A stretch of 64,000 nt of DNA from NCBI RefSeq assembly GCF_008033115.1, contig NZ_CP041203.1, positions 1,364,001-1,428,000 of the forward strand, read 5' to 3'. The notes under the pieces are model-generated. The model did not search any database. It saw only the letters and a program-made list of their open reading frames with translations, and had not been told where the DNA came from. Numbering within the stretch: the stretch's first letter is position 1; every line of letters begins with the position of its first letter. Of the stretch, positions 7,243 to 58,505 are shown one piece after another. Source of the stretch: Cellulomonas sp. Y8 (GTDB lineage: Bacteria; Actinomycetota; Actinomycetes; Actinomycetales; Cellulomonadaceae). The position numbers were made by a program, and so were the translations under genes.

Positions 7243-7272
7243 ACGATCAGTCGGTTTCGCGGCACGGACTGT
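7243..7272 (-). promoter_or_regulatory. LytTR-type operator C (upstream of the membrane GH3)
   Basis: On the minus strand the boxes read ACAGTCCGT, 12 bases, ACTGATCGT. They are close to the general LytTR box (W-M-M-G-T-T-N-R-K) and spaced 21 bp start to start, so both lie on one DNA face. A -10-like hexamer starts after a 33-bp gap. The same geometry occurs at 10473-10502 and 58476-58505. The likely ligand is the LytTR regulator at 13303-14016. Confidence 0.7.
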
Positions 7273-7286
7273 CACGCGCCGCGTGC

Positions 7287-7325
7287 CCCGCCCGGCCGGC
7301 CCCGCGACGGGGCCGGCCGGGCGGG
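7287..7325 (-). terminator. Hairpin after the small lipoprotein gene
   Basis: Perfect 17-bp GC stem (7287-7303 with 7309-7325) and loop gcgac, starting 11 bases after the lipoprotein stop. It separates that gene from the operator and promoter of the next GH3. Confidence 0.8.
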
Positions 7326-7336
7326 CGGTCGGACGG

Positions 7337-7762
7337 CTACTCCGTCACCTCGGTGATGGTGCCGTCCTGGTCGATCTGCCAGGTCTGGCCGGTCTCGGCC
7401 GAGTCCCCGTCGATCGTGTACTTGCCGTCGTCGATGTTGACGGTCCCCTGGATGCGGGACGCCGCCTCCGAGAAGGTGTAGGGCACCACGAGCAGGCCGT
7501 ACTTGACGGTCGGCGCCGAGACGTCGCTCGCGAGCATGATCTGGGCCCAGGAGTCGTCCTCGGCCAGCGCGTCGGCGACGGCGGTGCGGGCGTTCTCCAG
7601 GTCCTCCGCGATGTCCGACTCGGACGCCGCCTGCTCGCCCGAGGACGAGTCGTTGCTGCTGCTGCTGCCGCCGTCGTCGCTGCCGCAGGCGGTGAGGCCG
7701 AAGACGCCGGTGAGGGCGACCACGACGCCGAGGGCGGAGGTCAGGGCCTTGTTGCGCTTCAC
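7337..7762 (-). CDS. Small secreted lipoprotein of unknown function
   Basis: 141 residues. A type II signal peptide ends in the lipobox LTAC (Cys26), followed by a Ser/Asn/Gly-rich flexible linker and an acidic domain of about 95 residues. The GTG at 7762 has AAGGAG 7 bases upstream. The acidic domain (SDIAEDLENARTAVADAL, then beta-like stretches such as GKYTIDGDSAETG) gives no family I recognise. It lies between two GH3 genes, each followed by a strong hairpin, so it is probably part of the same surface glycan unit, perhaps an accessory or binding partner. That role is inference from position only. Confidence 0.85.
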   Translation of the reverse strand: MKRNKALTSALGVVVALTGVFGLTACGSDDGGSSSSNDSSSGEQAASESDIAEDLENARTAVADALAEDDSWAQIMLASDVSAPTVKYGLLVVPYTFSEAASRIQGTVNIDDGKYTIDGDSAETGQTWQIDQDGTITEVTE

Positions 7763-7828
7763 TTCTGTGCTCCTTGGTGGGTGCTGGCCGCGGGCCCACC
7801 CCGCGACCGGGTCCGCCTGACGGCGGGG

Positions 7829-7875
7829 CCGCCTGCGCGGGCGGCCGGCGTGCTGCCGGCCGCCCGCGCAGGCGG
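7829..7875 (-). terminator. Hairpin after the lipoprotein-type GH3
   Basis: A 21-bp perfect stem (7829-7849 with 7855-7875) with the 5-base loop gtgct, immediately after the GH3 stop at 7884. It is the longest hairpin in the window and a strong terminator or RNA-stabilising candidate. Confidence 0.8.
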
Positions 7876-7883
7876 TGGGTGCG

Positions 7884-10280
7884 TCAGCCCTCGATCGGGC
7901 CCGCGTAGTTCAGGCCGAAGCCGAACAGGTAGGAGTTGCCGGCCGCGTCGACGTACGGCTCGGTGTCCTCCTGGACGTCCTCCAGCTGCTTCTCGACCGC
8001 GTCCATGGAGGCCGGGAAGCCGATCGGCAGGCGGCCCTGGGGCTCGTTGAGGCCGATCGCGGTCTCGATGAGCGCCTGGTCGCTGACCCCGAAGCCGACG
8101 AGGATCGCGTCGGACTTCGCCTCGAACTCGGCCGGGACGGTCGGGTTCTTCGCCTTGAGGACGGTGATGACCGGGATGTCCTTGCCGGACGCCTCGACGG
8201 CGGCCACGGCGCGCTCGAACGCGTCGAGGTCCGACTCGTTCGACGTGCGCGAGGTGTTGCCGAAGTAGGACCGGTTCTCCTGCGTGCCGTCGGCCAGGAG
8301 GTCGCCGGAGATCGAGACCTTCCGGACGTTCTCGCCGTCCGCGGTGTACGGGCGGTACTGCAGCGAGAGCGGGTACCACTCACCGGTGGTCTCGTCGTGG
8401 CCGGAGTTGGCGAACACGGCGCCCGAGCTCGGGCTGTCCATGCCGACCAGCACGAGGTCCACGTCGGACAGGTCGGGGGCGGTGTAGCTCGTGACCTTGC
8501 CGTCCGCGTCCTCGACGGCCTCGTCCGTGACGACCTTCGCGAAGTAGTCCTCCGCGATCTCGACCGTCAGGCCGGGGCCCTCGGAGTACTCGCCCGGGCC
8601 GAACAGGCCGGCCTGGCCGGTGTCGAAGTTGCGCGGGATGTACACGGTCTTGTCGGCCCAGTCGCCCGCCTCGGCGGCGGCGATGGTGTCGGCGTCGTTC
8701 TTCAGCATCACGACCGAGTCGAGCTGCGCCTGGTAGCCGGCGTCCATCTTGTCCTGGCTCGCGACGACCTCCGTCGACTCGTCCAGGTCCAGGTAGGCGC
8801 TCTCGTACAGGCCCGGCTGGAACAGCATGTTCAGGATCCGGGTGCCCGACTCCTCGAAGCGGGTCTGCGCGTCGACGTCGTTCTCGCCGGCCTCGAAGTC
8901 CGCCTGCCACATGTCGTACGCCGCGAGCACGGGCTCGACCGCGTTGTTGCCGCCGAACATGTCGACGCCGTTCTTCAGGATCGCGTAGTGCCGGTCCTCG
9001 ACGGTCATGTCGTCGGCGCCCCAGGAGGTGCCGATCATCGCGTCGGGGTCGGTGCTGCCGCCCGCGGTCACGGCCCAGTCGGTCACGACCACGCCGGTGA
9101 AGTTCTCCCGCAGCAGGCCGGTGCGGTACGAGTCGTACGCGCTGCCCATGCGGTCACCGCCGCCGAGCGGCTGGCCCTCGCCGTCCAGGGCGATGGAGTA
9201 CGCGGTCATCACCGCGGCCGCGTCCATCGCGCCCAGGAACACCTCGGCGTGCGCGTCGAAGTTGTCGCCCGGGTAGACGCCGTACTTGCCGGCCTCGGTG
9301 TGCGACTCGCGGCCGCCCTCGCCCGGGCCGTCGCCGGCCCAGTGCTTGATCATCGCGTTGACCGACTCGTCGCCCCAGCCGTCCTCGCCCGGCGTCGTCT
9401 GGAAGCCGTCGACGTAGGCCGTCGCCATGGCGGACGCCAGCTCGACGTTCTCGCCGAACGTGCCGTCGACGCGCAGCCAGCGCGGGTCGGTCGCCAGGTC
9501 GATCTGCGGGCTGAGCGCGGTGCCGATGCCCAGCGCGCGGTACTCCGCGGAGACCGCCTCGGCGAAGGTCGTCATCGTCTCGGTGTCGAACGTCGCGGCC
9601 AGGCCCAGGTGGGACGGCCAGCGCGAGATGTCGCCGGACGCGTTGTAGTTGCCGCCGGACTCCGCCGTCGAGCGCGGGTCGGAGGAGAAGTTCACGGGCA
9701 CGTACGGCTCGTCCTCGGTGGCCAGCTCCTCGGCGTACTCCTGGAGCTGGTTCGACCAGGTGACGTTGGCCTCGACGTCGTTCGGGCCCGCGTTGAGCAC
9801 GTTCCGGAGCCGCGACTCCGACATGTACTCCTTCTGGGCGTCGGTCAGGCCGTCCGCGGGGGAGCGCTCGTGCGAGCTGAACAGCATGAGACCGGCGATC
9901 TGCTCCTTGGACAGGTGCTGCGCCAGGTCCGCCGCGCGGTCCTCCGACGCCTCGCGCCAGTCCTCCCAGACGTCGAGCTCGCCGTTGCCGTTCATGTCCT
10001 TGAAGGCGTACTCCTTGCCGTCGATCTCCTCGGTGAGGAGCTCGACGCCGCTGTCCTTGCCGTAGGACAGCACGGGTCCGTCGCCCGGGTTCGTGACGAC
10101 GACGAACTCGGTCTTGCCGTCGGTCACCTCCCGGGTGGTGAAGGAGTCGCCCGCCTGGGTGTCCTCGTCCGACGAGGAGGGGGAGCACGCCGTGAGGGCG
10201 AACAGGGCGAGACCCGCCACCGCCGCCGCACCCTTGACGTACCCGCCGTTGCGCCGTCGCACCGTGATGGTTGTCTTCAT
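7884..10280 (-). CDS. Lipoprotein glycoside hydrolase family 3
   Basis: 798-residue surface GH3. A lipoprotein signal peptide ends at LTAC (Cys32), so the enzyme should be tethered outside the membrane. Residues about 95-110 (DMNGNGELDVWEDW) resemble a Ca-binding EF-hand loop. The barrel domain carries IKHWAGDGPGEGG at about 311 and the nucleophile Asp401 in VVVTDWA; the sandwich domain follows (about 520-790). There is no fibronectin III domain. It begins with ATG at 10280 after AAGGAAGG. Two LytTR box pairs lie in the region upstream. Its architecture differs from both neighbouring GH3s, so the three probably have different bond or chain-length preferences on the same or related glycans. 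Confidence 0.92.
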   Translation of the reverse strand: MKTTITVRRRNGGYVKGAAAVAGLALFALTACSPSSSDEDTQAGDSFTTREVTDGKTEFVVVTNPGDGPVLSYGKDSGVELLTEEIDGKEYAFKDMNGNGELDVWEDWREASEDRAADLAQHLSKEQIAGLMLFSSHERSPADGLTDAQKEYMSESRLRNVLNAGPNDVEANVTWSNQLQEYAEELATEDEPYVPVNFSSDPRSTAESGGNYNASGDISRWPSHLGLAATFDTETMTTFAEAVSAEYRALGIGTALSPQIDLATDPRWLRVDGTFGENVELASAMATAYVDGFQTTPGEDGWGDESVNAMIKHWAGDGPGEGGRESHTEAGKYGVYPGDNFDAHAEVFLGAMDAAAVMTAYSIALDGEGQPLGGGDRMGSAYDSYRTGLLRENFTGVVVTDWAVTAGGSTDPDAMIGTSWGADDMTVEDRHYAILKNGVDMFGGNNAVEPVLAAYDMWQADFEAGENDVDAQTRFEESGTRILNMLFQPGLYESAYLDLDESTEVVASQDKMDAGYQAQLDSVVMLKNDADTIAAAEAGDWADKTVYIPRNFDTGQAGLFGPGEYSEGPGLTVEIAEDYFAKVVTDEAVEDADGKVTSYTAPDLSDVDLVLVGMDSPSSGAVFANSGHDETTGEWYPLSLQYRPYTADGENVRKVSISGDLLADGTQENRSYFGNTSRTSNESDLDAFERAVAAVEASGKDIPVITVLKAKNPTVPAEFEAKSDAILVGFGVSDQALIETAIGLNEPQGRLPIGFPASMDAVEKQLEDVQEDTEPYVDAAGNSYLFGFGLNYAGPIEG

Positions 10281-10401
10281 CGACCTTCCTTGTCATCTCG
10301 CGGCTCTGCTCGCGCGCCGCCGGCGCCGCGCCCTCGTCGGGCGGTGCCGGCGTCCCGTGTGCGCGCCACAGCGCACCTGGAGAACCGATCGCGACCCGTG
10401 A

Positions 10402-11943
<1,542 letters not shown>

Positions 11944-11965
11944 GCCCGGCGGCCCCCTCGGCGCG

Positions 11966-13300
11966 TCAGCGCGCGAGCGCGTCCGGGCGGCTGCTCGCCG
12001 GGACCGGCAGCAGGATCCGCAGCGCGAACCAGCTGTCGTCCGCGCTCACGGTCATCGAGCCGCCGTACTTCTCCGCCGTGTGCCGGATCGACTTCAGCCC
12101 GTACCCGTGCCGGTCGCGGTCGGCCCGCCGGGTCACGATGGCGCCGTCCTCGGTCCGCAGCGTCCCCGAGAAGTAGTTCTCGAACGTCGCCAGCACGAAG
12201 CCGCCCGTGGCGTACAGCGCGACCTTGATCAGCCGCTTCTCCGGCTCCGGCACCGCCATCACCGCGTCGATCGCGTTGTCCAGGGCGTTGCCGAACACCG
12301 CGGAGACGTCCATCGCCGACATGAAGTCGATCGTCGCGCCGTCCGCGACGTACGTGAGGTCGACGCCCTTCTCGGCGCACTCCAGGCTCTTGGACGTGAG
12401 GATGACGTCGAGCACCCCGTTGCCGGTGCGCGCCTGCGCGGCGTACCCGGACACGCTGGCCTCCAGGTCGTCCAGGTAGGACGCCCGCTTGCCCTCGTCG
12501 CTCTCCGCGCGGAGGACCGCGATCTGGTGCTTGAGGTCGTGGTACTTCCGGTCGACGACCTCGATGCTGCGCTTCGACTGCAGGTACTGCTCGTGCTGCC
12601 GGCGGAGCATCTCGTCGACGGCCTTGACGTCGGCGCGGGCCCGGAGCTGGAGCCGCTGGCCCTGCTGCGCGTACAGCGCGACGAACCCGCACAGGTCCAC
12701 CAGCGTGCGGATGTAGAAGATCTCCAGCCCCAGCCGGCCGCTGAACGGCGTGTTCGCGTTGAGGAAGCTGATGTTGCTCATGAAGAACGTCACCAGCGCG
12801 ATCGCCACCGCCGACGCCAGCTCGCCGAACGACACCTCGAGCGGCTGGGCGGGGCGGAAGTGCCGGGTCTCGATCAGGTACACCAGCACGAACGACGCGA
12901 CGTACATGACCACGCCGAACGCCACCTGCCAGGCGACCCCGGGCCGGCCCTCGGGCAGGAAGAAGAAGCAGTGCATCTGCCAGTGCAGCGCCGCGACCAG
13001 CTCGGCGAGCACCAGCGCGCGGGCGGCGAAGTACCCCGCGTCCCGCGCCGACACCCGCGCGGCCGTGACGATGAACGTGTACATCGCCGCCACCGCGGCG
13101 GCCATGCCGAGCGACCACAGCGCGAGCGGCAGCCGGTCCGCGAGCTCCTGGACCGCGACCAGCACCCCGAGCGCGGCCGCGGCGACGAGCACGAGGCGGC
13201 GGACCGGGAGCCGCTGGCGGCGCAGCAGGACGTACAGCAGGCACGCCGCCCACTCCGCGATGCCCGTGAGGACCCGCGGGATGTCCGGGAGCGTCTCCAT
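11966..13300 (-). CDS. GHKL sensor histidine kinase (AgrC/LytS-like)
   Basis: 444 residues. Six or so membrane helices fill the first 220 residues and no extracellular domain is evident, as in AgrC-type peptide-sensing kinases. The phosphoacceptor region is VDRKYHDLKHQ, then a GHKL ATPase domain with N-box FGNALDNAIDA and G-box GYGLKSIRHTAEKYGG. The ATG at 13300 lies 2 bases after the regulator stop; a GTG at 13306 overlapping that stop (GTGA) is an equally good start. It is co-transcribed with the LytTR regulator. No AgrB/AgrD-like peptide genes are present, so the signal is unknown. Confidence 0.9.
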   Translation of the reverse strand: METLPDIPRVLTGIAEWAACLLYVLLRRQRLPVRRLVLVAAAALGVLVAVQELADRLPLALWSLGMAAAVAAMYTFIVTAARVSARDAGYFAARALVLAELVAALHWQMHCFFFLPEGRPGVAWQVAFGVVMYVASFVLVYLIETRHFRPAQPLEVSFGELASAVAIALVTFFMSNISFLNANTPFSGRLGLEIFYIRTLVDLCGFVALYAQQGQRLQLRARADVKAVDEMLRRQHEQYLQSKRSIEVVDRKYHDLKHQIAVLRAESDEGKRASYLDDLEASVSGYAAQARTGNGVLDVILTSKSLECAEKGVDLTYVADGATIDFMSAMDVSAVFGNALDNAIDAVMAVPEPEKRLIKVALYATGGFVLATFENYFSGTLRTEDGAIVTRRADRDRHGYGLKSIRHTAEKYGGSMTVSADDSWFALRILLPVPASSRPDALAR

Positions 13301-13302
13301 GA

Positions 13303-14016
13303 TCACGCGTGCCGCGCCCCGAGGTAGTCGGTGAGCGCCGCGAGGAACGCCTTCTTCCGCGGGCGGCTGATCAGGAGGTCGTGCCCGCCGACCATCAGCG
13401 CGCTGCTGCCCTGCACCCCGAGCACGTGCCGCAGGTTCACCAGGTAGCCGCTGTTGCTGCGGAAGAAGCTCTTGCCCTCGAGCTCCGCCTCCAGCGACTT
13501 CAGCGGGCCGACCACCGAGTACCGGCCGTCGACCGTGTGCACCGTGGTGCGGTGCTTGGCCGACTCCAGGAACACGATGTCGTCGGTCGCGACCCGCACC
13601 AGGCCGCCGTCGACGGTCAGCAGCAGGTAGTCGGCCGACCGGCGGCGCAGCCGCGCGATCGAGCGCTTGATCTCCTGCGAGAACGCGAAGTACGGCACCG
13701 GCTTGAGGACGTAGCTCAGCGCGTCGACCTCGTAGCCCTTGATCGCGTACTGCGTCATGTTCGTGATGAACACGATGACGACGTCCCGGTCGACCTGGCG
13801 GATCTTCTCGGCGGCGCTGAACCCGTCGAGCTCGGGCATCTCGACGTCCAGCAGCAGGATGTCGAACACCGGCCGGTAGCCCGCGACGACCTGGGCGCCG
13901 TCGGCGAACCGGGTGACGTCGAACTGCTCGCCGTGGTCGCGCTCGTACCGACGCAGGTGGTCGAGGAGGAGCGCGGCGCTCGCCGCGTCGTCCTCGACGA
14001 TGCCGATCCTGATCAC
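13303..14016 (-). CDS. LytTR-family response regulator (AgrA/AlgR type)
   Basis: 237 residues. The receiver domain begins with IRIGIVEDD and carries the phosphorylated Asp in DILLLDVEMPELDG and the Lys in VLKPVPYF. The C-terminal LytTR DNA-binding domain (about 135-235) shows DIVFLESAKHRTTVHTVDG, FFRSNSGYLVNLRHV and LLISRPRKKAFL. The GTG at 14016 has GGAG 9 bases upstream; the long in-frame extension before it lacks a ribosome site. LytTR domains bind paired 9-bp direct repeats 12-13 bp apart, which is what occurs at four places in this window. It is therefore the best candidate regulator of the GH3/gtrA genes. Confidence 0.93.
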   Translation of the reverse strand: MIRIGIVEDDAASAALLLDHLRRYERDHGEQFDVTRFADGAQVVAGYRPVFDILLLDVEMPELDGFSAAEKIRQVDRDVVIVFITNMTQYAIKGYEVDALSYVLKPVPYFAFSQEIKRSIARLRRRSADYLLLTVDGGLVRVATDDIVFLESAKHRTTVHTVDGRYSVVGPLKSLEAELEGKSFFRSNSGYLVNLRHVLGVQGSSALMVGGHDLLISRPRKKAFLAALTDYLGARHA

Positions 14017-14139
14017 GGTGCCGTTCTCCGGGGTCCGCCTGCCACGCCCGCGGCGACGCGGGCCCTTGCGCCCGCCCCGGAGCGGCGTGGCGTGCCGCGG
14101 TCCCCTGTCGCGGCCCGCGGCTCCGGCGGGTCGCGGCCG

Positions 14140-14168
14140 ATGGTAGGTGACGCGCACCTGACGTGTCA
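14140..14168 (-). promoter_or_regulatory. Promoter of the LytTR/kinase operon
   Basis: Minus strand TGACAC, 17-base spacer, TACCAT. Its good -35 and the absence of LytTR boxes at the usual distance suggest the operon is not activated by its own regulator in the way the GH3 genes appear to be. Confidence 0.5.
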
Positions 14169-14209
14169 TCCACGCTGGCAGGAGGGTGAGACGCAGGGCC
14201 GCGACGTGC

Positions 14210-14944
14210 TCACGTCGGGACGGCCATGGCCTCCTCGGCGTCGGCCTCGCCCTGGACCGCGGCCACGACGACCGCCGCGAGGTCGTCCGGGCGGCTGAGC
14301 TGCGGCCAGTGGCCGGTCGGCAGCTCGACGACCGTCACGTCCCGGATGCGGGCGAGCTCGCGCACGTACGGGTGGTCCTTCGCCATGAGGTCGCGCAGCA
14401 CCGCCTCGGGCATGGTCGAGGTGATGACCGTGACGGGGACCTCGTACCGGCGCTCGTCGTGCAGCCGCTGCGGGCCGTTGGCCACGAGCGGGGGGACGGA
14501 GAGCGCCCGCGCACGGAAGTCGGCGCGGACCTGGTCGGTCAGGCCCTCCAGCTCCTCCTCCTCGAACACGCCCCAGTCCGGCAGCGGCACGACGCCGTCG
14601 ACCACCGGCAGCTCGTCGTTGACGACGCCGCCCTCGCCGAGCGGGCCGCTGTCGACGTAGACCACCTGCTCGACGCGGTCGGGCCGCAGGTCGGCCACGG
14701 CGTGCGCGACGGCGCCGCCACCGCTGTGGCCGACGACCACGAACGGGCCGTCCATGCCGTCGATCAGCTCCGCGACCGCGCGCGCCTGGTCGGCGATCGT
14801 GATGCCCGCGACCTCGTCCGCCGCGCCGCCGGCGCCCAGCGGCGTGACGGGGTGCGGGGTGTGCCCGGCGGCCTCCAGGGCCGCGGAGACCGGCGCCCAG
14901 GAGGACGCGTCGAGCCAGAAACCCGGGATCAGGACGACGTTCAT
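14210..14944 (-). CDS. Alpha/beta hydrolase (esterase-like)
   Basis: 244 residues of alpha/beta hydrolase fold, probably a soluble esterase or related hydrolase. The oxyanion region is VLIPGFWLD, the nucleophile elbow is VVGHSGGG with the catalytic Ser, and the His is likely in LPTGHWPQLSRPDDLA near the end. The ATG at 14944 begins the conserved core, though the ribosome site (GGAG one base before) is poor. It is divergent from the alcohol dehydrogenase; the 145 bp between holds a TTGA-4-TCAA palindrome. Substrate unknown. Confidence 0.85.
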   Translation of the reverse strand: MNVVLIPGFWLDASSWAPVSAALEAAGHTPHPVTPLGAGGAADEVAGITIADQARAVAELIDGMDGPFVVVGHSGGGAVAHAVADLRPDRVEQVVYVDSGPLGEGGVVNDELPVVDGVVPLPDWGVFEEEELEGLTDQVRADFRARALSVPPLVANGPQRLHDERRYEVPVTVITSTMPEAVLRDLMAKDHPYVRELARIRDVTVVELPTGHWPQLSRPDDLAAVVVAAVQGEADAEEAMAVPT

Positions 14945-15016
14945 GCTCCGACCGTAGACGTGACCTCCGACACACGCGACGGTGCGCACGCGCCGCCGAT
15001 CTCGACCACCCGGTAG

Positions 15017-15028: not shown

Positions 15029-15089
15029 GCGTATGGTGGCTTTGTCTACCACCGATCCGGGGGTCGTCCCGGAGGAAGAAGTCGCTGCT

Positions 15090-50012: not shown

Positions 50013-50021
50013 ACCCGCGGG

Positions 50022-50216: not shown

Positions 50217-50244
50217 GGGACGAGCCTCGCACGCCCCGGACGGG

Positions 50245-51174
50245 TCAGGCGTGCCCGAGGTGCTCGTGCGTGCGGTGCGACGCGGGCTCGATCTGGAACG
50301 TCGAGTGCTCGACCGAGATCGGGAAGTGCGTGGCGAGGCAGTCCTGGAGCTGGTCGAGGATCCGCGCGGTGTGCCCGTCGGAGAAGCACTCGTCGTCGAC
50401 CGTGATGTGCGCCGTGACCACCGGCAGCCCCGTCGCGACCAGCGTCGCGTGCAGGTCGTGCACCGAGCGCACGTGCTCGACGCCGAGCAGGTGGTCCCGC
50501 ACCGCGTCGAGGTCGAGCCCGGGCGGCGTCGACTCCAGCAGCACGGCGGCGGTCTCGCGCAGCAGCCGGATCGCGCGGGGGACGATCAGGGCGCCGATGA
50601 GCAGGCCGGCGACCGCGTCCGCCTGCTGCCAGCCCGTGGTCGCGATGACGACCGCGGCGACGATGACGCCGACCGAGCCGAGCGCGTCGTTCAGCACCTC
50701 GAGGAAGGCGGCGCGCAGGTTGAAGTTCGCCTTCCGGCCCCCGGCCAGCACCGCGATCGCGAGCAGGTTCGCGACGAGCCCGACGACGCCGAACACGATC
50801 AGCTCGGTCGACGGGACGTCGGGCGGTGCGAACAGCCGCCGGACGCCCTCGACCAGCACGTACCCGCCGACCGCCAGCAGCACCGCGGACTGCGCCAGCG
50901 CGCCCAGCACCTCGGCCCGCCGGTAGCCCCAGGTCCGCCGCGACGTCGCCGGCTTGAGCGCGAGGTGCGCGGCGACCAGCGCCATGGCGAGCCCCGCGGC
51001 GTCGGTGAGCATGTGCGCGGTGTCCACCAGCAGCGCGAGGCTGCCGGTCACCAGCGCGCCGACCGCCTGGGCGACCAGCACCGTCGACGTCAGGCCGAAC
51101 GCGATCGCGAGCCGTCGCCGGTGGTCCGCCGGGGCGCCGTCGGCACCGCCGCCGTGCCCGTGGTCGTGGCTCAC
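50245..51174 (-). CDS. Cation diffusion facilitator (CzcD/ZitB-like, pair 2)
   Basis: 309 residues: a His-rich N-terminus (HDHGHGG), six membrane helices and a full cytoplasmic domain ending in HRTHEHLGHA. Helix 2 has the standard metal site DTAHMLTDAAG; in helix 5 the usual H-x3-D reads E-x3-D (LEVLNDALGS), which may change metal preference. GTG at 51174 overlaps the ArsR stop (GTGA). Exports Zn, Co or a related metal, induced through the ArsR partner. Confidence 0.92.
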   Translation of the reverse strand: MSHDHGHGGGADGAPADHRRRLAIAFGLTSTVLVAQAVGALVTGSLALLVDTAHMLTDAAGLAMALVAAHLALKPATSRRTWGYRRAEVLGALAQSAVLLAVGGYVLVEGVRRLFAPPDVPSTELIVFGVVGLVANLLAIAVLAGGRKANFNLRAAFLEVLNDALGSVGVIVAAVVIATTGWQQADAVAGLLIGALIVPRAIRLLRETAAVLLESTPPGLDLDAVRDHLLGVEHVRSVHDLHATLVATGLPVVTAHITVDDECFSDGHTARILDQLQDCLATHFPISVEHSTFQIEPASHRTHEHLGHA

Positions 51175-51545
51175 GCCGGGTCCCCCGCGAGATGCGCGCA
51201 CGCGTCCGGGCTCGAGCCGCCGCGCAGCAGGTCCTCCGCCGCGCCGACGAGCGTCGCCAGGCGACCGGGGTCGGCGATCGCGTAGATGGAGGCCCGGCCG
51301 CGCTGCCGCACGGTGACCAGCCCGCAGTCCCGGAGGCAGGCGAGGTGCACGCTGACCGTGCTCTGCGCGAGCCCGAGGTGGTCCGTCAGCTCGCGCACCG
51401 AGTGCTCGCCGGTGAACAGGTGGCGCAGCATCGTCAGCCGGGCCGGCTCGCCGAGCGCCCGGAACAGCGCGGCGGTCGGCGCGGTGAGGGCGGCGTCGTC
51501 GGCGGAACGGGTCTCGTTCTCGTCATCGATAGCGGGGGATGTCAT
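51171..51545 (-). CDS. ArsR/SmtB-family repressor (pair 2)
   Basis: 124 residues with winged helix FRALGEPARLTMLRHL, VRELTDHLGLAQSTVSVHLACLRDCGLV and YAIADPGR. Cys in LACLRDC and a Cys/His near the end (DACAHL) may form the metal site; the tail is less Cys-rich than in the first pair. ATG at 51545 starts the conserved region. Coupled to the CDF gene. Confidence 0.9.
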   Translation of the reverse strand: MTSPAIDDENETRSADDAALTAPTAALFRALGEPARLTMLRHLFTGEHSVRELTDHLGLAQSTVSVHLACLRDCGLVTVRQRGRASIYAIADPGRLATLVGAAEDLLRGGSSPDACAHLAGDPA

Positions 51546-51733
51546 CGCCACAGGACGATGATGGCTGCCGGCGCCCAGGGGCGTCAACCACTCTCCCGCG
51601 CGCCGGCGTCGCCCGAACGGGTGGTCCCGTGGCCGCCGTGACCGGAACGGGACGCCAGCGTGATGCTCCCGTGCTGTCCACCCTGGTCACGGAGCCGGAA
51701 GCATGCCGTCCATCGGACGATGGAGGAAATCTC

Positions 51734-53332
51734 ATGCGTGGTCGGACGTCGACGGAAGCGGCTCGTCCCGGGACGGCGCGGCGGTCGCGGGACCGCCTGG
51801 TCGTCGCGGTCGCGGTGGTGGCGCTGGGAGCGCTCGGCGCGTGCAGCTCGGGGGACGCGAGCGACGCCTCCTACGGCCAGGAGGTCGCGCAGGACGACGC
51901 GTACGCACCCGATCCGTGGCCGTACGCCCCCACCGAGTCGCAGGAGGACTACGACGACTCGCCGGAGCAGCCGTTCCAGGACGTCGCGACCAGCCCGCTG
52001 TCGACGTTCGCCTCCGACGTCGACACCGCCTCGTACAGCAACCTGCGCCGGCAGCTCACCCAGGGCACCCAGCCGCAGGGCGTGCGGATCGAGGAGCTCG
52101 TCAACTACTTCGACTACGACTACCCGGCGCCGGCGCCGGACGCGGAGGACCCGTTCACGGTGACGACGCAGGTCGCGGACGCGCCGTGGGACCCGGACCA
52201 CCAGCTGGCGATGATCGGCGTGCAGGTCACGGACGCCGTCCCGACGAGCCGGGGCGACAACATCGTCTTCCTGCTCGACGTGTCCGGCTCCATGGACGAG
52301 CCGGACAAGCTGCCGCTGCTCGCGCGGTCGTTCGAGCTCCTGGTCGAGCAGCTCGACGAGGACGACACCGTCTCGATCGTGACGTACGCCGGCAGCGACA
52401 CCGTCCTCGCGGACTCGGTGCCGGGGAACGAGCAGCGCACGCTCGTCGGGATCCTGCGCGAGCTCAGCGCGGGCGGCTCGACCGGCGGGGCGCGGGGCCC
52501 GGAGACCGCGTACGAGCTCGCCACGAAGAACTTCGTCGAGGGCGGCAACAACCGCGTCGTCCTGGCCACCGACGGCGACTTCAACGTCGGCCCGTCGACG
52601 CCCGAGCAGCTCACCGACCTCATCGAGGAGCACGCCCGGACCGGCGTGCACATCTCCGTCCTCGGGTTCGGCATGGGCAACCTCAAGGACAGCACCATGG
52701 AGGCGATCGCCGACCACGGGAACGGCAACTACGCGTACATCGACACCCTCGACGAGGCGCGCAAGGTCCTGGTGGACGAGTTCGACTCCACGATGTTCGT
52801 CGTCGCCCAGGACCTCAAGCTCCAGGTCGAGCTGAACCCGGCGACCGTCTCGCAGTACCGGCTGCTGGGCTACGACAACCGCCGCCTGGAGGACGAGGAC
52901 TTCGACGACGACACGAAGGACGCCGGCGACGTCGGCGCCGGGCACTCGGTCACGGCGTTCTACGAGCTGGTGCCGGCCGGGCGCGAGAGCGGGAGCGGCG
53001 ACGACGACCTCGACTACCAGGACCGCAAGACGCGCGGCTCCGACGACTTCCTCACGGTGCACGTCCGCTACAAGGACCCCGGGGCGACCGAGAGCACCGA
53101 GGTCGTCGTCCCGGCCGGCGCGGACGCGTACACCCGCTCCCCCGGCGCGGACTTCCGGTTCGCGTCCGCGGTGGCGGAGTTCGGTCTCGTCGCGTCGGGG
53201 TCCGAGTACGCCGACGGCGCCGACCCGGGCCGCGCCCGGGACCGGGCCGCGGAGGCGCTCGGGGAGGACCCGTACGGGCTGCGGTCGGAGTTCGTCGGGC
53301 TCGTCGAGCGGTACGAGCAGGTCGCGGGCTGA
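51734..53332 (+). CDS. Surface lipoprotein with von Willebrand A domain (YfbK-like)
   Basis: 532 residues. Lipoprotein signal with lipobox LGAC; an acidic linker; an N-terminal vWA-associated region (PLSTFASDVDTASYSNLRRQL, VRIEELVNYFDYDYP); the vWA domain with the MIDAS motif DVSGSM and ATDGDFNVG; and a C-terminal DUF3520-like domain. This matches the YfbK family, outer-surface proteins of unknown function. ATG at 51734 has GGAGG 7 bases upstream; a CCATCG-GA-CGATGG hairpin at 51710-51723 touches that site and could limit translation. Followed by a run of small membrane-protein genes. Confidence 0.92.
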   Translation: MRGRTSTEAARPGTARRSRDRLVVAVAVVALGALGACSSGDASDASYGQEVAQDDAYAPDPWPYAPTESQEDYDDSPEQPFQDVATSPLSTFASDVDTASYSNLRRQLTQGTQPQGVRIEELVNYFDYDYPAPAPDAEDPFTVTTQVADAPWDPDHQLAMIGVQVTDAVPTSRGDNIVFLLDVSGSMDEPDKLPLLARSFELLVEQLDEDDTVSIVTYAGSDTVLADSVPGNEQRTLVGILRELSAGGSTGGARGPETAYELATKNFVEGGNNRVVLATDGDFNVGPSTPEQLTDLIEEHARTGVHISVLGFGMGNLKDSTMEAIADHGNGNYAYIDTLDEARKVLVDEFDSTMFVVAQDLKLQVELNPATVSQYRLLGYDNRRLEDEDFDDDTKDAGDVGAGHSVTAFYELVPAGRESGSGDDDLDYQDRKTRGSDDFLTVHVRYKDPGATESTEVVVPAGADAYTRSPGADFRFASAVAEFGLVASGSEYADGADPGRARDRAAEALGEDPYGLRSEFVGLVERYEQVAG

Positions 53333-53559
53333 GGGGCGGGGCAGGGAAGTTCGTCATGACGGCACCTCCTGCTCTCTCCTGCGCCGCACGAGTCGCCCGT
53401 CCGAGTGAAATGTCCGGTTCGTCCGGCCGGGTGACAGCTGACCAGGCAGAGTGCAGGCACGGGTCGATGACGGAGGGCGGACGGCGTGCGGGGTTCTGAG
53501 GACGGGCGCGTCCCCGTCGACCCGCCCCTGGCGCTCGTCACGTGCCTGCGGCGGCGACG

Positions 53560-53826
53560 ATGACCACCACCCGCGACGTCCTGCGGTTCCTCGGCCTCAC
53601 CAAGGCCCGCGGCCCGCTGCCGCACTGGGGGCTGTACGCCACCATCGCGGTCTGCGAGGTGGTCGTGCTCGCTGCCGGTGCCGCCCTGGGCGCACCCGCC
53701 TCGCTGCTCGTGCTGCTCGGGCTCCTGGCTGTGCTCATGGCGGCGCTCGCGGTCGTGTCATACCGGCAGCGGCGCCGTGCGAGGCAGGACGGCGACCGCC
53801 CCGACGATTCCCGGACGACCCGGTGA
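53560..53826 (+). CDS. Small membrane protein
   Basis: 88 residues, two membrane helices (LYATIAVCEVVVLAAGAAL and LLVLLGLLAVLMAALAVV), basic/acidic tail. ATG at 53560 has only a weak upstream site; GTG at 53542 is an alternative. Its stop overlaps the next start (GTGA), which supports it being real. Function unknown. Confidence 0.65.
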   Translation: MTTTRDVLRFLGLTKARGPLPHWGLYATIAVCEVVVLAAGAALGAPASLLVLLGLLAVLMAALAVVSYRQRRRARQDGDRPDDSRTTR

Positions 53827-54014
53827 CAGGGACGGGCGGCGGCAGCATCTCGGCGGCCGAGGCGGCGGTCGCCGTGGCGCTCGTCCTGCTGGCGGCGTGG
53901 CTGCTCTTCCGGTTCCGCGACGACCCGCCGCGGCGCCGACGGGTCCAGGTGACGGCCGCCGTCGTGGGCTTCGCGGCGGTGGCGTTCTTCGCGGTCCGGT
54001 CGCTGACGTCATGA
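53823..54014 (+). CDS. Very small two-helix membrane protein
   Basis: 63 residues from GTG at 53823 overlapping the preceding stop. Helices AAVAVALVLLAAWLLF and VVGFAAVAFFAV separated by the basic loop RDDPPRRRR. The coupling and hydrophobic pattern support translation; no family recognised. Confidence 0.6.
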   Translation: MTGTGGGSISAAEAAVAVALVLLAAWLLFRFRDDPPRRRRVQVTAAVVGFAAVAFFAVRSLTS

Positions 54015-54167
54015 CGGTTCTGCAGTTCTGCAGAGGAGGGATGTCGCGTGACGGTCTTCTGGCCGCCTCTGCGCACCGGGGTCGGTCGTGCTGCGCGCGG
54101 GCGCCGCACTCGTCCGGCGGTGCGGTGATGATCGAGCTGTCTCTCCTCGACCTGGACCGGTGACGGC

Positions 54168-54692
54168 GTGAAGCGCGACCTGCCGTTCTGGTTGCTGGTG
54201 GCGGCGAGCGCCGTCGGGCTGGCGGTCGTGGTGATCGTGGTGGTCGCGGGGGACGGCGGGCCGTCGCTGCCGGCAGCGCTCGGTGCTGCCGTCGGACTCG
54301 TCGCCGGGTGGACCGCGGTCGTCGTCCGGGCACGCCAGGGGCGACCGGACGATCGCGGCGCCGCCGGGCCGACCGCGCCGGGTCCGCCCGCGCGCCTCGT
54401 GCTGTCCCGTGGCGACGACTCAGCCGGCATGATGCGGCACATCCGCGTCACGGTCGACGGCGAACTCGTGGCACTCCTGAAGCCGCGCACCGTGGCGGAG
54501 GTCGACGTGCCGCCGGGCCGGCACCGCGTGCGCGCGTCGATGGACTGGACGACCTCCGGGGCGCTGGACCTCGACCTGGTCCCGGGCGAGCGCGTCGAGA
54601 TCAGGACCGGGCTGCCGCTCTCCATGATCTGGAGGATGGTCACGGCGCCGGGCGACACCTTGACGATCGAGCGGATAGGAAGCATGCGGTGA
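54168..54692 (+). CDS. Membrane protein with small beta domain
   Basis: 174 residues from GTG at 54168: two membrane helices (about 6-28 and 34-52), a linker, then a beta-rich cytoplasmic domain (HIRVTVDGELVALLKPRTVAEVDVPPGRHRVRASMD) resembling the short carbohydrate- or lipid-facing beta domains found C-terminal in several uncharacterised membrane proteins. Its stop overlaps the next gene (GTGA). Function unknown. Confidence 0.7.
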   Translation: MKRDLPFWLLVAASAVGLAVVVIVVVAGDGGPSLPAALGAAVGLVAGWTAVVVRARQGRPDDRGAAGPTAPGPPARLVLSRGDDSAGMMRHIRVTVDGELVALLKPRTVAEVDVPPGRHRVRASMDWTTSGALDLDLVPGERVEIRTGLPLSMIWRMVTAPGDTLTIERIGSMR

Positions 54693-55111
54693 CCGCGCAC
54701 GACGGTCGCCGCTCGTCCGTCCTCGTGGCGTTCTGGGCAGGCCTCGCCGCTTTCTGCGCGGCCGGCGTGGTCCTGTCCGCGGTGACGGGACAGCAGGGCT
54801 GGGCCACGGTGTCCGTGACCGCCACCGGGCTCGTGCTCGTGACGCGTCTTGTCGACCGGCTCACCGAGCGCGGGCGCCGGGTGCTGGACGTGGTCGCGGT
54901 CGTCCTGTTCGCGGCGGTGCTCGTCGGGGTCGTCGTGCTTCTGGCCGTCACCGACGGCTTCGCCGACGCCTGGTACCTCGTCGTGCTCGCCGCGGTGGCG
55001 CTAGCCGGGGTCGTCCTCGGCGCACGCGCCCGCCGGCGCCGGGAGGCGGACGCGCCGCCCCGCGTCGAGGCGGTCCGCCGCGCAGGACGGGGAGGACGAC
55101 CCGATGACTGA
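54689..55111 (+). CDS. Four-helix membrane protein
   Basis: 140 residues from GTG at 54689 overlapping the preceding stop. Four membrane helices paired as two hairpins (SSVLVAFWAGLAAFCAAGVVL, a second short one, VVAVVLFAAVLVGVVVLLA, YLVVLAAVALAGVVLGA), then a basic disordered tail. No family recognised. Last of the coupled small-gene run, 109 bp before tRNA-Lys. Confidence 0.68.
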   Translation: MTAHDGRRSSVLVAFWAGLAAFCAAGVVLSAVTGQQGWATVSVTATGLVLVTRLVDRLTERGRRVLDVVAVVLFAAVLVGVVVLLAVTDGFADAWYLVVLAAVALAGVVLGARARRRREADAPPRVEAVRRAGRGGRPDD

Positions 55112-55220
55112 ACCGTCGCCGGGACGACGGCAGCCGGTCCGACGCACGCCCCGAAGAGGCGGTACCTTCGACCTCGTCGGCCTCGGGGCGGCGTCACGCC
55201 CGCCCCGGACGACACATCCC

Positions 55221-55293
55221 GGGCCTCTAGCTCAACTGGCAGAGCAGCGGACTTTTAATCCGCGGGTTGTGGGTTCGATCCCCACGGGGCCCA
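55221..55293 (+). tRNA. tRNA-Lys (anticodon TTT)
   Basis: Full cloverleaf: acceptor GGGCCTC/GGGGCCC (one G-U pair), D arm GCTC/GAGC, anticodon arm GCGGA-CTTTTAA-TCCGC with anticodon TTT at 55254-55256, T arm GTGGG-TTCGATC-CCCAC, discriminator A. The 3' CCA is not encoded. Confidence 0.97.
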
Positions 55294-55311
55294 CCCACGT
55301 AGCCTGCCGTG

Positions 55312-56628
55312 GTGAGCCTCCCGACGACCCCCGGCCCGTCCGACCGGTCGCCGCAGCACGCCCGGCGCGCTCGGCGGTCCCGCCGGGGTCCTGCGGTCCT
55401 GCTCACCGCGCTGGTCGCCGCCGCGGCGACCGCCGTACCCCTCGCCTGGGCGGCGGAGGGCGGCCCGGCCGGCCCCGCACCCGCGGTCACCGAGGCCGCC
55501 GCCGTCGCCGCCGCGCCGACGTCGCAGCCACCCGCCCCCACCCCCACGTGCACCCCGCAGCCCCTCGAGGCCCGCGCCGCCGCGGTGCTCGTCGTCGGGC
55601 TGCCCGGCGTGACGCGCGCGGACGACGCGCTCGCGCAGCAGGTCGTCGGGCTCGGCGTCGGTGGCGTGTTCCTGGCGGGCGGGAACGCCCGCAGCGCCGA
55701 CCAGGTGGCGGCGCTCACCACCGGGCTGCGCGCCGCGGCGGGCCGGCCGCTGCTGGTGTCGACCGACGAGGAGTCCGGCCGGGTGGCCCACATGCGCCAG
55801 GTCGTCGGCGCCGGGCCGTCGCCGCGCCGCATGGCCCGGGAGGAGTCGCCGGACGACGTCCGTGCCCGGGCGGCGGAGACCGGCCGCGTGCTGGCCGAGG
55901 TCGGCGTGGACCTGGACCTCGCGCCGGTGCTCGACCTGGACGACGGCCCCGCGACGGGCGTGATCGGCGACCGGTCCTTCAGCGCCGACCCCCAGGAGGC
56001 GGCGACGTACGGGCTCGCCTACGCGCGCGGGCTCGCCGACGCGGGCGTCACCTCGGCGGTCAAGCACTTCCCCGGGCACGGACGCTCGGCGGTCGACTCG
56101 CACCGCGAGTCGTCCCTGGTCGAGGCGGCGCTGGACGAGCTCGCGGCGACCGACCTGGCGCCGTTCCAGGCGGCCGTCGACGCCGGCGCTCCCGTCGTCA
56201 TGCTCAACCACCTGCAGTACGCGGCCCTCGACCCCGACCTGCCCGCGTCCCTCAGCCCGCGCGCCTACGCGCTGCTGCGCGAGATGGGCTTCGAGGGGGT
56301 CGCGATGACGGACTCGGTCGGGATGGGCGCCGTCAACCTCCGCTGGGACTTCCCAGACGCCGCCGTGCAGGCGGTGTCCGCCGGAGCCGACGCGGTCCTC
56401 GCGACCGACGGCAACCACGCCGCCCGGATGCGCGACGGCCTCGTCGCCGCGGTCCGCTCCGGGCAGCTGCCCGAGGCCCGGCTGTCGGAGGCCGCGGCGC
56501 GCGTCACCGCGCTGGCCGGCGGCGACCCCGTGGCGATGTCGTGCCTGGAGGTGGAGCTGCCGCGGCTGGACGGGGGCGCAGGTGCCGACGCGACCGCCGG
56601 GGCAGAGGGCCTCAGCCCGGCGCCGTGA
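55312..56628 (+). CDS. Secreted GH3 family, NagZ-like (beta-N-acetylhexosaminidase type)
   Basis: 438 residues: signal peptide after an Arg-rich start (RRARRSRRGPAVLLTALVAAAATAVPLAWA), a Pro/Ala/Thr linker, then a single-barrel GH3 domain. It has the NagZ-type loop VKHFPGHGRSAVDSH, with the Asp/His dyad used as acid/base by this branch, and the nucleophile Asp in AMTDSVGMGAV. It probably trims N-acetylglucosamine from peptidoglycan or other glycans outside the cell. GTG at 55312 is about 7 bases after TAGCCT, so the mRNA is probably leaderless and begins just after the tRNA. Confidence 0.9.
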   Translation: MSLPTTPGPSDRSPQHARRARRSRRGPAVLLTALVAAAATAVPLAWAAEGGPAGPAPAVTEAAAVAAAPTSQPPAPTPTCTPQPLEARAAAVLVVGLPGVTRADDALAQQVVGLGVGGVFLAGGNARSADQVAALTTGLRAAAGRPLLVSTDEESGRVAHMRQVVGAGPSPRRMAREESPDDVRARAAETGRVLAEVGVDLDLAPVLDLDDGPATGVIGDRSFSADPQEAATYGLAYARGLADAGVTSAVKHFPGHGRSAVDSHRESSLVEAALDELAATDLAPFQAAVDAGAPVVMLNHLQYAALDPDLPASLSPRAYALLREMGFEGVAMTDSVGMGAVNLRWDFPDAAVQAVSAGADAVLATDGNHAARMRDGLVAAVRSGQLPEARLSEAAARVTALAGGDPVAMSCLEVELPRLDGGAGADATAGAEGLSPAP

Positions 56629-56677
56629 CGCCGGGCCGGCCAGCAGGTCCCGGTCCGTGCGGACTCGCGCGACACGG

Positions 56678-57667
56678 TCACGCCACGCCCAGCAGCCCGA
56701 TCGCTTCCCGCGCCCGCGCCGTGGTCGCCGCCGCCCGGGGCGTCACGGCGTCCCTGCCCGCGCGCAGCACCCGGTCCACCTCGGCCGGGTCCGCCTCGAG
56801 CTCGGCGTACCGACGCCGGACCGGGTCGAGGGCCGCCACCACCGCCTCGGTCACCGCGGACTTGAGCGCCCCGGCCCCCCGCAGCCCCGCGAGCGCCTCC
56901 TCGGGTGACCGGCCCGTGAGCGCGCCGAGCAGGGCGGCGAGGTTCGCGACGCCGGGCCGCCCCTCGGGGTCGAACGCCAGCGCCGGCTCTCCGTCCGTGA
57001 CCGCCCGGCGCACCTTCGCCGCGACGGTGTCGGGGTCGTCGAGCAGGAACAGCACCCCCGCGCCGTCCGACCCGGTCTTGCCCATCTTGGTCCGCGGGTC
57101 CCGCAGGTCCTTGAGCCGTGCGGTCGTCGGGGGCGTGCTCCCCCGCGGGATCACGAAGGTCTCGCCGTAGCGGGCGTTGAACCGGCGGGCGAGGGTCGTG
57201 GTCAGCTCCAGGTGCTGCCGCTGGTCCTCGCCGACGGGCACCACCTCCGTGTCGTGGGCGAGGATGTCCGCCGCCATGAGGGCGGGGTAGGTGAGCAGCG
57301 ACAGCCGGATCGAGTCGCCGCCCGCCGACTTCTCCTTGAACTGGACCATCCGCGTCATCTCGCCGTACGTCGCGGTGCACTCGAGGAGGTGCGCCAGCTC
57401 GGTGTGCGCCGGGACGGTCGACTGCACGAACAGCCGGGCGCTCGGGTCGAGGCCGCAGGCCAGCATCGTCGTGGCCACCTCCCGGGTGCGCGCACGGAGC
57501 AGCGCGGGGTCGTGCTCCACGGTGAGGGCGTGCAGGTCGGCGACGCAGACGACGACGTCCGCACCGGGGTCCGCGGCGAGGTCGAGCAGCGGCCGGATCG
57601 CGCCGAGGTAGTTGCCGAGCTGCAGGCTGCCGGTGGGCTTGAGGCCGGTGAACACACGCGTGGGCAC
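56678..57667 (-). CDS. trpS: Tryptophanyl-tRNA synthetase
   Basis: 329-residue class I synthetase charging tRNA-Trp. The HIGH-equivalent region is GLKPTGSLQLGNYLGA, DLHAL and EMTRMVQFKEK follow, and the KMSKS equivalent is TKMGKTGSDGAG. GTG at 57667 has AAGGAG 7 bases upstream. A short upstream frame with three consecutive Trp codons and a following hairpin indicate attenuation by ribosome stalling when charged tRNA-Trp is scarce. Confidence 0.95.
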   Translation of the reverse strand: MPTRVFTGLKPTGSLQLGNYLGAIRPLLDLAADPGADVVVCVADLHALTVEHDPALLRARTREVATTMLACGLDPSARLFVQSTVPAHTELAHLLECTATYGEMTRMVQFKEKSAGGDSIRLSLLTYPALMAADILAHDTEVVPVGEDQRQHLELTTTLARRFNARYGETFVIPRGSTPPTTARLKDLRDPRTKMGKTGSDGAGVLFLLDDPDTVAAKVRRAVTDGEPALAFDPEGRPGVANLAALLGALTGRSPEEALAGLRGAGALKSAVTEAVVAALDPVRRRYAELEADPAEVDRVLRAGRDAVTPRAAATTARAREAIGLLGVA

Positions 57668-57730
57668 AGGAGGACTCCTTCGGGGTGGGGTGCGCCCACG
57701 ACGGTCGGAGCCCTGCGAGGAACGTGCGAG

Positions 57731-57753
57731 CGGCCGCCCGAGGTGGGCGGCCG
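57731..57753 (-). terminator. Attenuator hairpin in the trpS leader
   Basis: Perfect 9-bp GC stem (57731-57739 with 57745-57753) with 5-base loop, 11 bases after the leader-peptide stop and 63 before trpS. It is the expected terminator of a Trp attenuator. Confidence 0.6.
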
Positions 57754-57764
57754 GGGACATGAGG

Positions 57765-57821
57765 TCAGGCGGCGCCCTGCGAGCGCCACCACCAGCCGTT
57801 GCCGGACGTCAGGAACCTCAT
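57765..57821 (-). CDS. trpS leader peptide (Trp-Trp-Trp)
   Basis: 18-residue frame MRFLTSGNGWWWRSQGAA, ATG at 57821, stop at 57765. Three tandem Trp codons in an 18-codon frame, just upstream of trpS and followed by a GC hairpin, are the hallmark of ribosome-mediated attenuation. A -10-like CACAGT ends 7 bases before the ATG, so the leader may itself be leaderless. Stalling at the Trp run would free the downstream hairpin region and raise trpS expression. Such leaders are described for trp genes and trpS in actinobacteria. Confidence 0.8.
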   Translation of the reverse strand: MRFLTSGNGWWWRSQGAA

Positions 57822-57877
57822 GGGGTCACTGTGCCCGACCCGCCCGGGGCGGGCGCAAGCCCTCTCCCCCGCCCGGC

Positions 57878-58453
57878 TCAGCGTCGCGCCGCCCACTCCT
57901 CGCGCAGCAGCGCGTACGCGTACGAGTCCAGCCACCGCCCGTCCCGGTGCAGCGAGTCCGCCCGGTACACCCCCTCGCGCCGCATCCCGACCCGCTCCAT
58001 GAGCCGCCAGGACGGCGCGTTGTCCGCGAAGCACAGCGCGGTCAGCCGCCGCAGGCCGAGGTCGGTGAAGCAGACGTCGAGCAGCCGGCGGACCGCCTCG
58101 GTCGCGAGGCCGTGACCCTGCGCGGCGGGGTCGAACGCCCAGCCGATCTCCGCCTGGGTGCCCTTCGCCTGCTCGGCGACCTCCGTCTGACCCCAGCCGT
58201 CCTCGATGCGGACCATCAGGTCGCCGACCACGGCGCCGTCACGCTCGACGACGAGGGTCGGGCCGAGGCGGTCGGGCTCGACGAACCGCGCGGCGAACGC
58301 CTGCTCGTCGTCGGGCAGCGCGGTCATCCAGCGGGCGACCTCGGGGAGCCGGCGGTAGGCCCAGACCGCCGACGCGTCGGCCGCCGTCGCGGGGCGCAGC
58401 AGGAGGCGCTCGGTGGTGATCGGCCAGGGGGCGTCGAGGTACGGGGCGGTCAC
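57878..58453 (-). CDS. RimJ/RimL-type GNAT acetyltransferase
   Basis: 191 residues: ITTERLLLRPATAADASAVW at the start, the acetyl-CoA loop PAAQGHGLATEAVRRLLD and NAPSWRLMERVGMRREGVYR, all typical of RimJ/RimL-like protein N-acetyltransferases. GTG at 58453 is 6 bases after TAGCCT and is probably leaderless. Target unknown. It ends before the trpS leader, with a short hairpin (57839-57853) between. Confidence 0.9.
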   Translation of the reverse strand: MTAPYLDAPWPITTERLLLRPATAADASAVWAYRRLPEVARWMTALPDDEQAFAARFVEPDRLGPTLVVERDGAVVGDLMVRIEDGWGQTEVAEQAKGTQAEIGWAFDPAAQGHGLATEAVRRLLDVCFTDLGLRRLTALCFADNAPSWRLMERVGMRREGVYRADSLHRDGRWLDSYAYALLREEWAARR

Positions 58454-58475
58454 ACGGGCAGGCTAGCCGCGCCCG

Positions 58476-58505
58476 ACAGCCTGTGGACCCCCGCGGACAG
58501 GTTGT
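58476..58505 (+). promoter_or_regulatory. LytTR-type operator D (upstream of gtrA copy 2)
   Basis: Plus-strand boxes ACAGCCTGT, 12 bases, ACAGGTTGT. A -10-like TTACCT lies after exactly 33 bases (58539-58544), as at operators A and C. This is the only such pair noticed away from the 7-11 kb cluster, and it precedes a GtrA paralogue. Confidence 0.65.

Follow-up and report, generated by a model that had tools for sequence, protein, structure and literature searches.

The 64-kb window considered here, i.e. the whole stretch of Cellulomonas sp. Y8 DNA that was analysed, contains four pairs of similar 9-mers, and the question it raises is whether these are operators of the LytTR response regulator encoded in the same window and, if so, which genes that regulator commands. 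The first-pass annotation had read them as one local LytTR regulon. All four pairs are present, each with the claimed 9-12-9 geometry (12-bp spacer), and the direct 9-mers lie 21 bp apart, start to start. Compared with ACAGTTCGT, box 1 and box 2 carry 1 and 2 mismatches at 7243, 2 and 3 at 10473, 3 and 0 at 10623, and 3 and 2 at 58476. The -10-like hexamers reported for three of the four sites do begin 33 bp past box 2 (Table 1). The arrangement is that of a LytTR operator, in which a promoter is closely preceded by two 9-mers with 11-13 bp between them. The LytTR regulator/GHKL kinase pair claimed at 11966-14016 was borne out by the domain matches, which give a receiver plus LytTR protein and an adjacent GHKL kinase, the composition of a LytTR two-component system.

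Table 1. Genes of the module and predicted operators in the 64-kb window.
Feature	Position	Strand	Basis or details
GT2 glycosyltransferase	1..1003, running ~17 bases past the window edge (L085:9984-11003)	-	PF00535, 95.5 bits
Operon gtrA	1000..1638	-	PF04138
GH3a, beta-glucosidase-like	1664..4150	-	Pfam, PDB comparison
GH3b, C domain before N domain	4179..7265 (ORF extent)	-	Pfam domain order
LytTR operator of GH3b (predicted)	7243..7272	-	ACAGTCCGT-N12-ACTGATCGT; -10 TAGCCT 7209-7204
Small lipoprotein-like ORF	7337..7762	-	kept with GH3c; in 11/19 Cellulomonadaceae-group loci
GH3c, lipoprotein-like N-terminus (read from sequence)	7884..10280	-	PF00933, PF01915
LytTR operator of GH3c, operon lead (predicted)	10473..10502	-	ACCGTTTGT-N12-ACAGTCTTT; -10 TCGACT 10439-10434
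Distal operator (predicted), GH3c/glf intergenic	10623..10652	-	GCAGGTTGT-N12-ACAGTTCGT
glf, UDP-galactopyranose mutase, divergent from GH3c	10759..11943	+	PF03275
GHKL histidine kinase, presumably AgrC-like, N-terminal hydrophobic segments	11966..13306	-	PF14501, 85 bits; hydropathy
Response regulator, receiver + LytTR domain	13303..14169 (ORF extent; start 14016 also possible)	-	PF00072, PF04397, over cut-off
Operator of stand-alone gtrA (predicted)	58476..58505	+	ACAGCCTGT-N12-ACAGGTTGT; -10 TTACCT 58539-58544
Stand-alone gtrA paralog	58594..59229	+	PF04138

The operon runs in the order GH3c, small lipoprotein-like ORF, GH3b, GH3a, gtrA and GT2, and the GTG start of the GT2 gene overlaps the gtrA stop (GTGA). 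The operon gtrA and the overlapping GT2 gene had been absent from the first-pass annotation. The nearest PDB structures of GH3a and GH3b are beta-glucosidases, and those of GH3c a beta-glucosidase and SN243. GH3b, whose start is probably near 7172, has its domains between two hydrophobic segments (58-76 and 984-1002, by hydropathy); no hydrophobic segment was found by hydropathy in GH3a, and the searches of Pfam and NCBIfam gave no matches to the small lipoprotein-like ORF. AgrA is the nearest to the LytTR domain among solved chains (E 0.003), and the kinase is one that we take to be AgrC-like.

Two LytTR proteins are encoded in the genome, each beside a GH3 module. The second module (L084), which lies outside the window and has its own regulator, contains a fifth site of identical geometry at C1:3716715-3716744, ACAGTTTGT-N12-CCCGGTTGT, with TTGGCT at +33. 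Among the three modules related to L084 in other genomes, L175 and L180 follow the loose rule but L179 breaks it; across six loci (156,000 strand-bases) this pattern occurs 3 times, two of the 3 occurrences being the L084 and L175 sites.

GC-rich 9-mers could also have clustered in the window by chance. With a matrix trained on 22 sites from relatives (some of them close), and on none of the window sites, sites 7243, 10473 and 10623 scored 39.9, 37.6 and 30.6, followed by 8.0 (the gtrA site) and 3.0, and the top score in 60 Markov-1 shuffles was 14.9. Since scores of at least 8 are expected 0.62 times per shuffled 64 kb, site 58476 is not significant by score alone, and its chance-level score is a point in favour of coincidence. 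A whole-genome scan had been proposed as a check. A sequence-only covariance model (R1), trained on 25 sites including these three and excluding site 58476, placed the three window sites best in the 4.476-Mb genome (E 9.8e-7, 1.7e-6 and 8.0e-5; next 0.34), 150 of the 4216 first-look candidates having been scored. A hand-made IUPAC pattern, which the three sites match with 0, 1 and 3 mismatches, did no better than its control; it was non-discriminating at 3 mismatches, because the real and the reversed pattern each gave 5 genome matches, and was replaced by R1. The scores of both scans, the +33 rule, the recurrence of operators in relatives, the co-occurrence with the regulator and the alignment of gtrA orthologs described below argue against coincidence, which is in effect refuted by genus-wide conservation and has a negligible probability.

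The distance to the promoter is as regular as the boxes. It was found that TNNNNT begins 33 bp past box 2 in 24 of 26 GH3-lead operators. These were taken from the genus and from named relatives, were chosen by hand on score and position, not by the -10, and include close relatives (L159/L160, L163/L166, L009/L112, L019/L173 and L006/L010); not included were the distal sites on the glf side, L009:12856, and those from L003, L004, L005, L014 and L016, these five loci being repeats of close relatives. Without selection, the motif stands at +33 in 25 of the 30 sites scoring >10 in L003-L021, the five exceptions being L009:9550, L009:12856 and the distal site in each of L003, L004 and L005. In the window, TNNNNT occurs at a base rate of 1.1%. 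No conserved -35 element was found in the alignment of the 26 operators, and there is little conservation from the GTGCA-like tail of box 2 to the -10. In the part of PMC6193735 drawn on here, the 9-mers of LytTR operators (S. mutans HdrR and BrsR) usually have a spacing of 12 bp (11 or 13 in a minority), and the repeats are strongly biased to a position 10 bp upstream of the -35. This layout predicts 10+6+17 = 33 bp to the -10, if a 17-bp -35/-10 spacing is taken, and matches the distance found here.

The regulator scan returned 73 loci, from Cellulomonadaceae and their neighbours, Bifidobacterium, Lachnospiraceae and other Clostridia, with further loci from Amphibacillus, Halolactibacillus, a Treponema bin and Izemoplasmatales bins; 70 of the 73 have a kinase match. 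Among the 39 loci of at least 20 kb, several of which end before the module does, the kinase is present in all 39, GH3 near the regulator in 37, GtrA in 23, GLF in 13 and GT2 in 10. Clustering of the unassigned neighbours gave mostly apparent antisense ORFs, plus one real GT2 family.

The conservation of the boxes in relatives, which had been named as a check, was found: by the consensus scan, operators stand ahead of GH3 genes in 16 of the 19 Cellulomonadaceae-group loci, and the operators at 7243, 10473 and 10623 recur as such ahead of GH3 genes in relatives (the 7243 type ahead of GH3b). Two of the operator-less loci, L020 and L021, have no GH3; in the third, L015 (C. cellasea), regulator, kinase, glf and GH3b are present and no recognisable operator was found. 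In the other 54 loci, 19 of the 87 regions upstream of GH3 genes, from 17 loci, contain boxes with ≤3 mismatches that are separated by 11 bp and followed by a -10 at a distance of 31-33 bp, compared with a mean of 0.5 in shuffles and 1 of 51 regulator upstream regions; the majority of the 87 regions gave no match. A spacer of 12 gave 4 regions (3 loci) and the control spacers of 9 and 7 gave 6 and 5, so that only spacer 11 and the matches with ≤1 mismatch (7 with spacer 11, 2 with spacer 12, 0 with all others) stand out. The cleanest distant site, ACAGTTTAT-N11-ACAGTTTGT-N31-TATAAT, is found in three near-identical loci. Related boxes are thus present ahead of GH3 genes beside regulator relatives in Clostridia. 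A 4-mer word-pair search of the upstream regions of distant loci returned mostly A-rich pairs and was set aside.

The co-occurrence of operator and regulator was followed in 80 genomes of the genus, which were divided by a regulator match at E≤1e-20 into 22 positive and 58 negative. An operator at E≤1e-5 is present in 17 of the 22 positive and 1 of the 58 negative genomes (Fisher p 4e-12), and at E≤1e-3 in 18 and 5, respectively; the E-values in positive genomes are partly so by construction, because some of the 80 appear to be the assemblies of training loci (e.g. the coordinates of G040:C37 match L021), and part of the co-occurrence is linkage, since operator and regulator are mostly neighbours. 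The single regulator-negative genome with a strong operator, G045, has a contig that starts just before the kinase gene (L173), and the assembly may therefore simply lack its regulator. Five positive genomes fall short of E≤1e-5. Operators are present in the retrieved stretches of four of them, G036, G006, G011 and G038; in the fifth, G075, with a regulator 54% identical, no operator was found, the lead promoter lying outside the stretch examined. The GtrA family is distributed likewise, being present in 22/22 positive genomes and in 1/58 negative ones (G045), and a search for the LytTR domain gave no match in 10 regulator-negative genomes. As to the weak operator matches of negative genomes, there is no module gene within 11 kb of those in G033, G041 and G072 and none in the 3-kb loci of G051 and G070, and in G044 a GH3-like match lies ~2.3 kb off and GtrA is absent; TNNNNT at +33 was not found at the weak matches L115, L116, L119 and L120.

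Targets in trans are stronger evidence than the linked co-occurrence. They comprise the lone gtrA of the window, a GH3a-gtrA operon of G042 whose operator lies ~1.16 Mb from the nearest regulator match, and a GH3a target gene of G036, whose contig shows no regulator match. The first-pass reading of a local regulon is thus kept in so far as the operators probably belong to the local LytTR regulator, to judge from the co-occurrence in the genus, the kept geometry and -10, and the boxes in Clostridia; its targets need not be local, the 58476 site being ~44 kb from the regulator. No operator-scoring site near the regulator's own start was found among the top window scores.

The genome contains three gtrA copies, one of which is the stand-alone paralog; it is 65% identical to the operon gtrA, and other genomes contain ten orthologs of it with 76-91% identity. 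A 9-12-9 pair is aligned 117-121 bp upstream of all 11 stand-alone genes (the ten orthologs and that of the window), the surrounding DNA being diverged. Their scores range from 5.7 to 19.4, and the two weakest sites (6.3 and 5.7) rest on position and alignment, because they do not exceed the best score among the operon-internal copies, 6.3. A stricter pattern matches 9 of the 11 sites, and TNNNNT follows at +33 in 9/9. The 38 GtrA matches consist of these 11 and 27 others, and operator counts cover the 19 of the 27 that came with a locus: all 19 are operon-internal, flanked by GH3a and GT2, and none has a comparable upstream site, the 6.3 being on the opposite strand. The stand-alone genes have neither a GT2 neighbour nor an adjacent GH3a (0/11 for each), and a GH3a-like match lies ~0.85 kb upstream in three. 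The two boxes come close to an inverted repeat in some orthologs (ACAACCTGT/ACAGGTTGT), where reading them as direct repeats is therefore not the only option. The site at 58476 as a predicted operator is therefore supported by ortholog conservation and not by its own score.

Operators had been claimed ahead of two GH3 genes, gtrA and glf, and it is the last of these that is doubtful. The distal site has no -10 at +33 toward GH3c, and on the glf side TACACT lies at 10694-10699, 41 bp off. In 9 of 17 loci the operator and a glf -10 (TACACT/TAGACT-like) are separated by 41-42 bp; elsewhere the distance is 17-18 bp, or 57 and more (the extremes were read by eye). The membership of glf in the regulon is uncertain because this distance is not fixed, unlike that of the GH3 promoters, and the idea that the distal site drives glf with GH3-type geometry was dropped on the same ground. 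The site could instead be an auxiliary upstream site for GH3c only, glf standing outside the regulon. Its boxes are oriented as those of GH3c, and the variable glf distance next to the fixed GH3 one is in keeping with this; against it, the glf -10 stays at 41-42 bp in those nine loci (several of them close relatives) although the DNA between is diverged, and on the GH3c side of the distal site no TNNNNT stands at +33 in the window or in L003-L005, L007 having one. We regard the chances of this alternative as evenly balanced.

Taken together, the sites, their geometry, conservation and co-occurrence with the regulator, and the gene content, all of which were computed, make it likely that an AgrC/AgrA-like GHKL-LytTR system activates a GH3/GtrA/GT2 surface-glycan programme. 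In response to an external signal, the GHKL kinase would phosphorylate the regulator, a dimer of which would occupy both direct 9-mers, two helical turns apart, at about -75 to -46. Because the box pair lies 33 bp upstream of the -10, binding would draw RNA polymerase to promoters without a recognisable -35; the regulator would probably act as an activator and not as a repressor. Its targets would be the GH3c-lipoprotein-GH3b-GH3a-gtrA-GT2 operon, the internal GH3b promoter and the stand-alone gtrA, and in two relatives also the GH3a operons away from the regulator. Surface GH3s, a GtrA-type membrane protein, a GT2 and a nearby glf fit a cue-driven change of a cell-surface glycan.

The same regulator and operators could, instead, serve a catabolic programme in which surface beta-glucosidases forage plant glucosides, in the manner of a Gram-positive polysaccharide utilisation locus. 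The beta-glucosidases that are nearest to GH3a and GH3b in the PDB suit such a role, and in Butyrivibrio a LytTR gene beside a secreted GH3 is filed under polysaccharide utilisation loci in the part of PMC2914790 drawn on here. GH3 and regulator, which such a locus should have, are present; a transporter was not noticed among the recurrent neighbour clusters, the recurrent partners GtrA, GT2 and Glf are biosynthetic by family, and an operator stands also at a lone gtrA. Foraging is, for these reasons, unlikely, though a serious competitor. Far less probable is that the sites serve another transcription factor, the LytTR gene being a bystander. LytTR binding at the sites is predicted, and in some orthologs the gtrA site comes close to a palindrome, which would suit such a factor; the boxes are, however, LytTR-like and their promoter distance is that published for LytTR in the consulted part of PMC6193735, operator presence tracks the regulator, and both LytTR genes of the genome lie beside GH3 modules.

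Within the preferred reading, activation of a surface-glycan programme by the local LytTR system, a broader proposal may be made with considerable reserve. The regulator loci in Actinomycetota, Bacillota, a Treponema bin and Izemoplasmatales bins could represent a portable cross-phylum module for glycan remodelling, in which an AgrC-like sensor and its LytTR partner switch on trimming by GH3 and rebuilding by GT2/GtrA (with Glf), the kinase perhaps reading a GH3 product or the state of the glycan. If so, one code of operator plus spaced -10, with membrane-tethered GH3s, would allow the cell to monitor and swap its own coat. A little-studied sensor-regulator family, whose relatives span environmental actinobacteria, bifidobacteria and gut Lachnospiraceae, gains here a precise operator code and a short target list; therefore, the signal of the GHKL-LytTR pair and the joint switching of GH3, GtrA and GT2 can now be asked about, the latter bearing on surface-sugar change in such bacteria.

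Among the known systems, the LytTR Regulatory Systems of S. mutans (HdrR, BrsR) are characterised, in the part of PMC6193735 drawn on here, by membrane-inhibitor partners and by autoregulation through a direct repeat, whereas the present regulator has a receiver domain, its partner is a GHKL kinase, and its targets are GH3, GtrA and GT2; it is not one of these systems. The likeness to AgrC/AgrA consists in the HATPase_c_5 GHKL domain of the kinase and in the LytTR domain nearest to AgrA; the targets of the Cellulomonas system differ. The AgrB protease of agr quorum sensing was found in 0/22 genomes, with a weak positive control (1/14 control genomes matched, none over the cut-off), and AgrB/AIP signalling, which was considered, is accordingly not supported.

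A close precedent is that of Butyrivibrio proteoclasticus (2010), where three LytTR regulators each lie beside a secreted GH3 with a C-terminal TM helix, and for which the authors suggest a common function; the operator, the promoter rule, the GtrA/GT2/Glf set and the cross-phylum comparison are not described in the portion of PMC2914790 consulted. Roseburia Ros-7 (RR[LytTR] with GH25, GH43 and GH51) and Amuc_1010 (LytTR domain only) have, as far as the excerpts of PMC5320581 and PMC5945754 go, no bearing on this module. A description of this operator or regulon was not found in the open-licence PMC text. The type of operator and the type of regulator are known; the regulon we rate as new, and its cis code as unusually clean.

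GtrA and GtrB form glucosyl-lipid surface-modification pairs. The module resembles them in that a GtrA-type membrane protein adjoins a GT2, which follows gtrA in 19/19 operon copies and is a candidate counterpart of GtrB; it differs from them in the GH3 enzymes and the LytTR system that are attached here.

The operators of three relatives, L006, L008 and L010, one at each locus, are situated between the divergent glf and GH3b genes, and their boxes (ACAGAACGT/ACAGATCGT) are legible fairly well in both directions; each may be a two-way operator. The L015 locus retains the regulator, the kinase, glf and GH3b, and a recognisable operator was not found in it.

The second module of the own genome (L084) contains a LytTR regulator (44% identical), together with a permuted GH3, a GH3a and a GtrA (88% identical); no match to the window's kinase was found in this 20-kb stretch.

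Locations of the loci and genes discussed
Feature	Location	Strand
L084, second module	own genome, C1:3708001-3728000	
L015	Cellulomonas cellasea ET82	
L174, module	G009 C47	
GT2 glycosyltransferase gene	window 1-1003; L085:9984-11003	minus
Long ORF	window 5-1192	plus

The GT2 gene overlaps the stop codon of the operon gtrA, and the long ORF, antisense to the GT2 gene, gave no Pfam match. In L130, L131 and L132, which are close relatives, the stand-alone gtrA has a GH3a-like match some 0.85 kb upstream.

The L174 regulator is a paralog (47% identical), and the operator profile gave no match in the intergenic region of its module, which hints at a change of specificity between the regulator paralogs.
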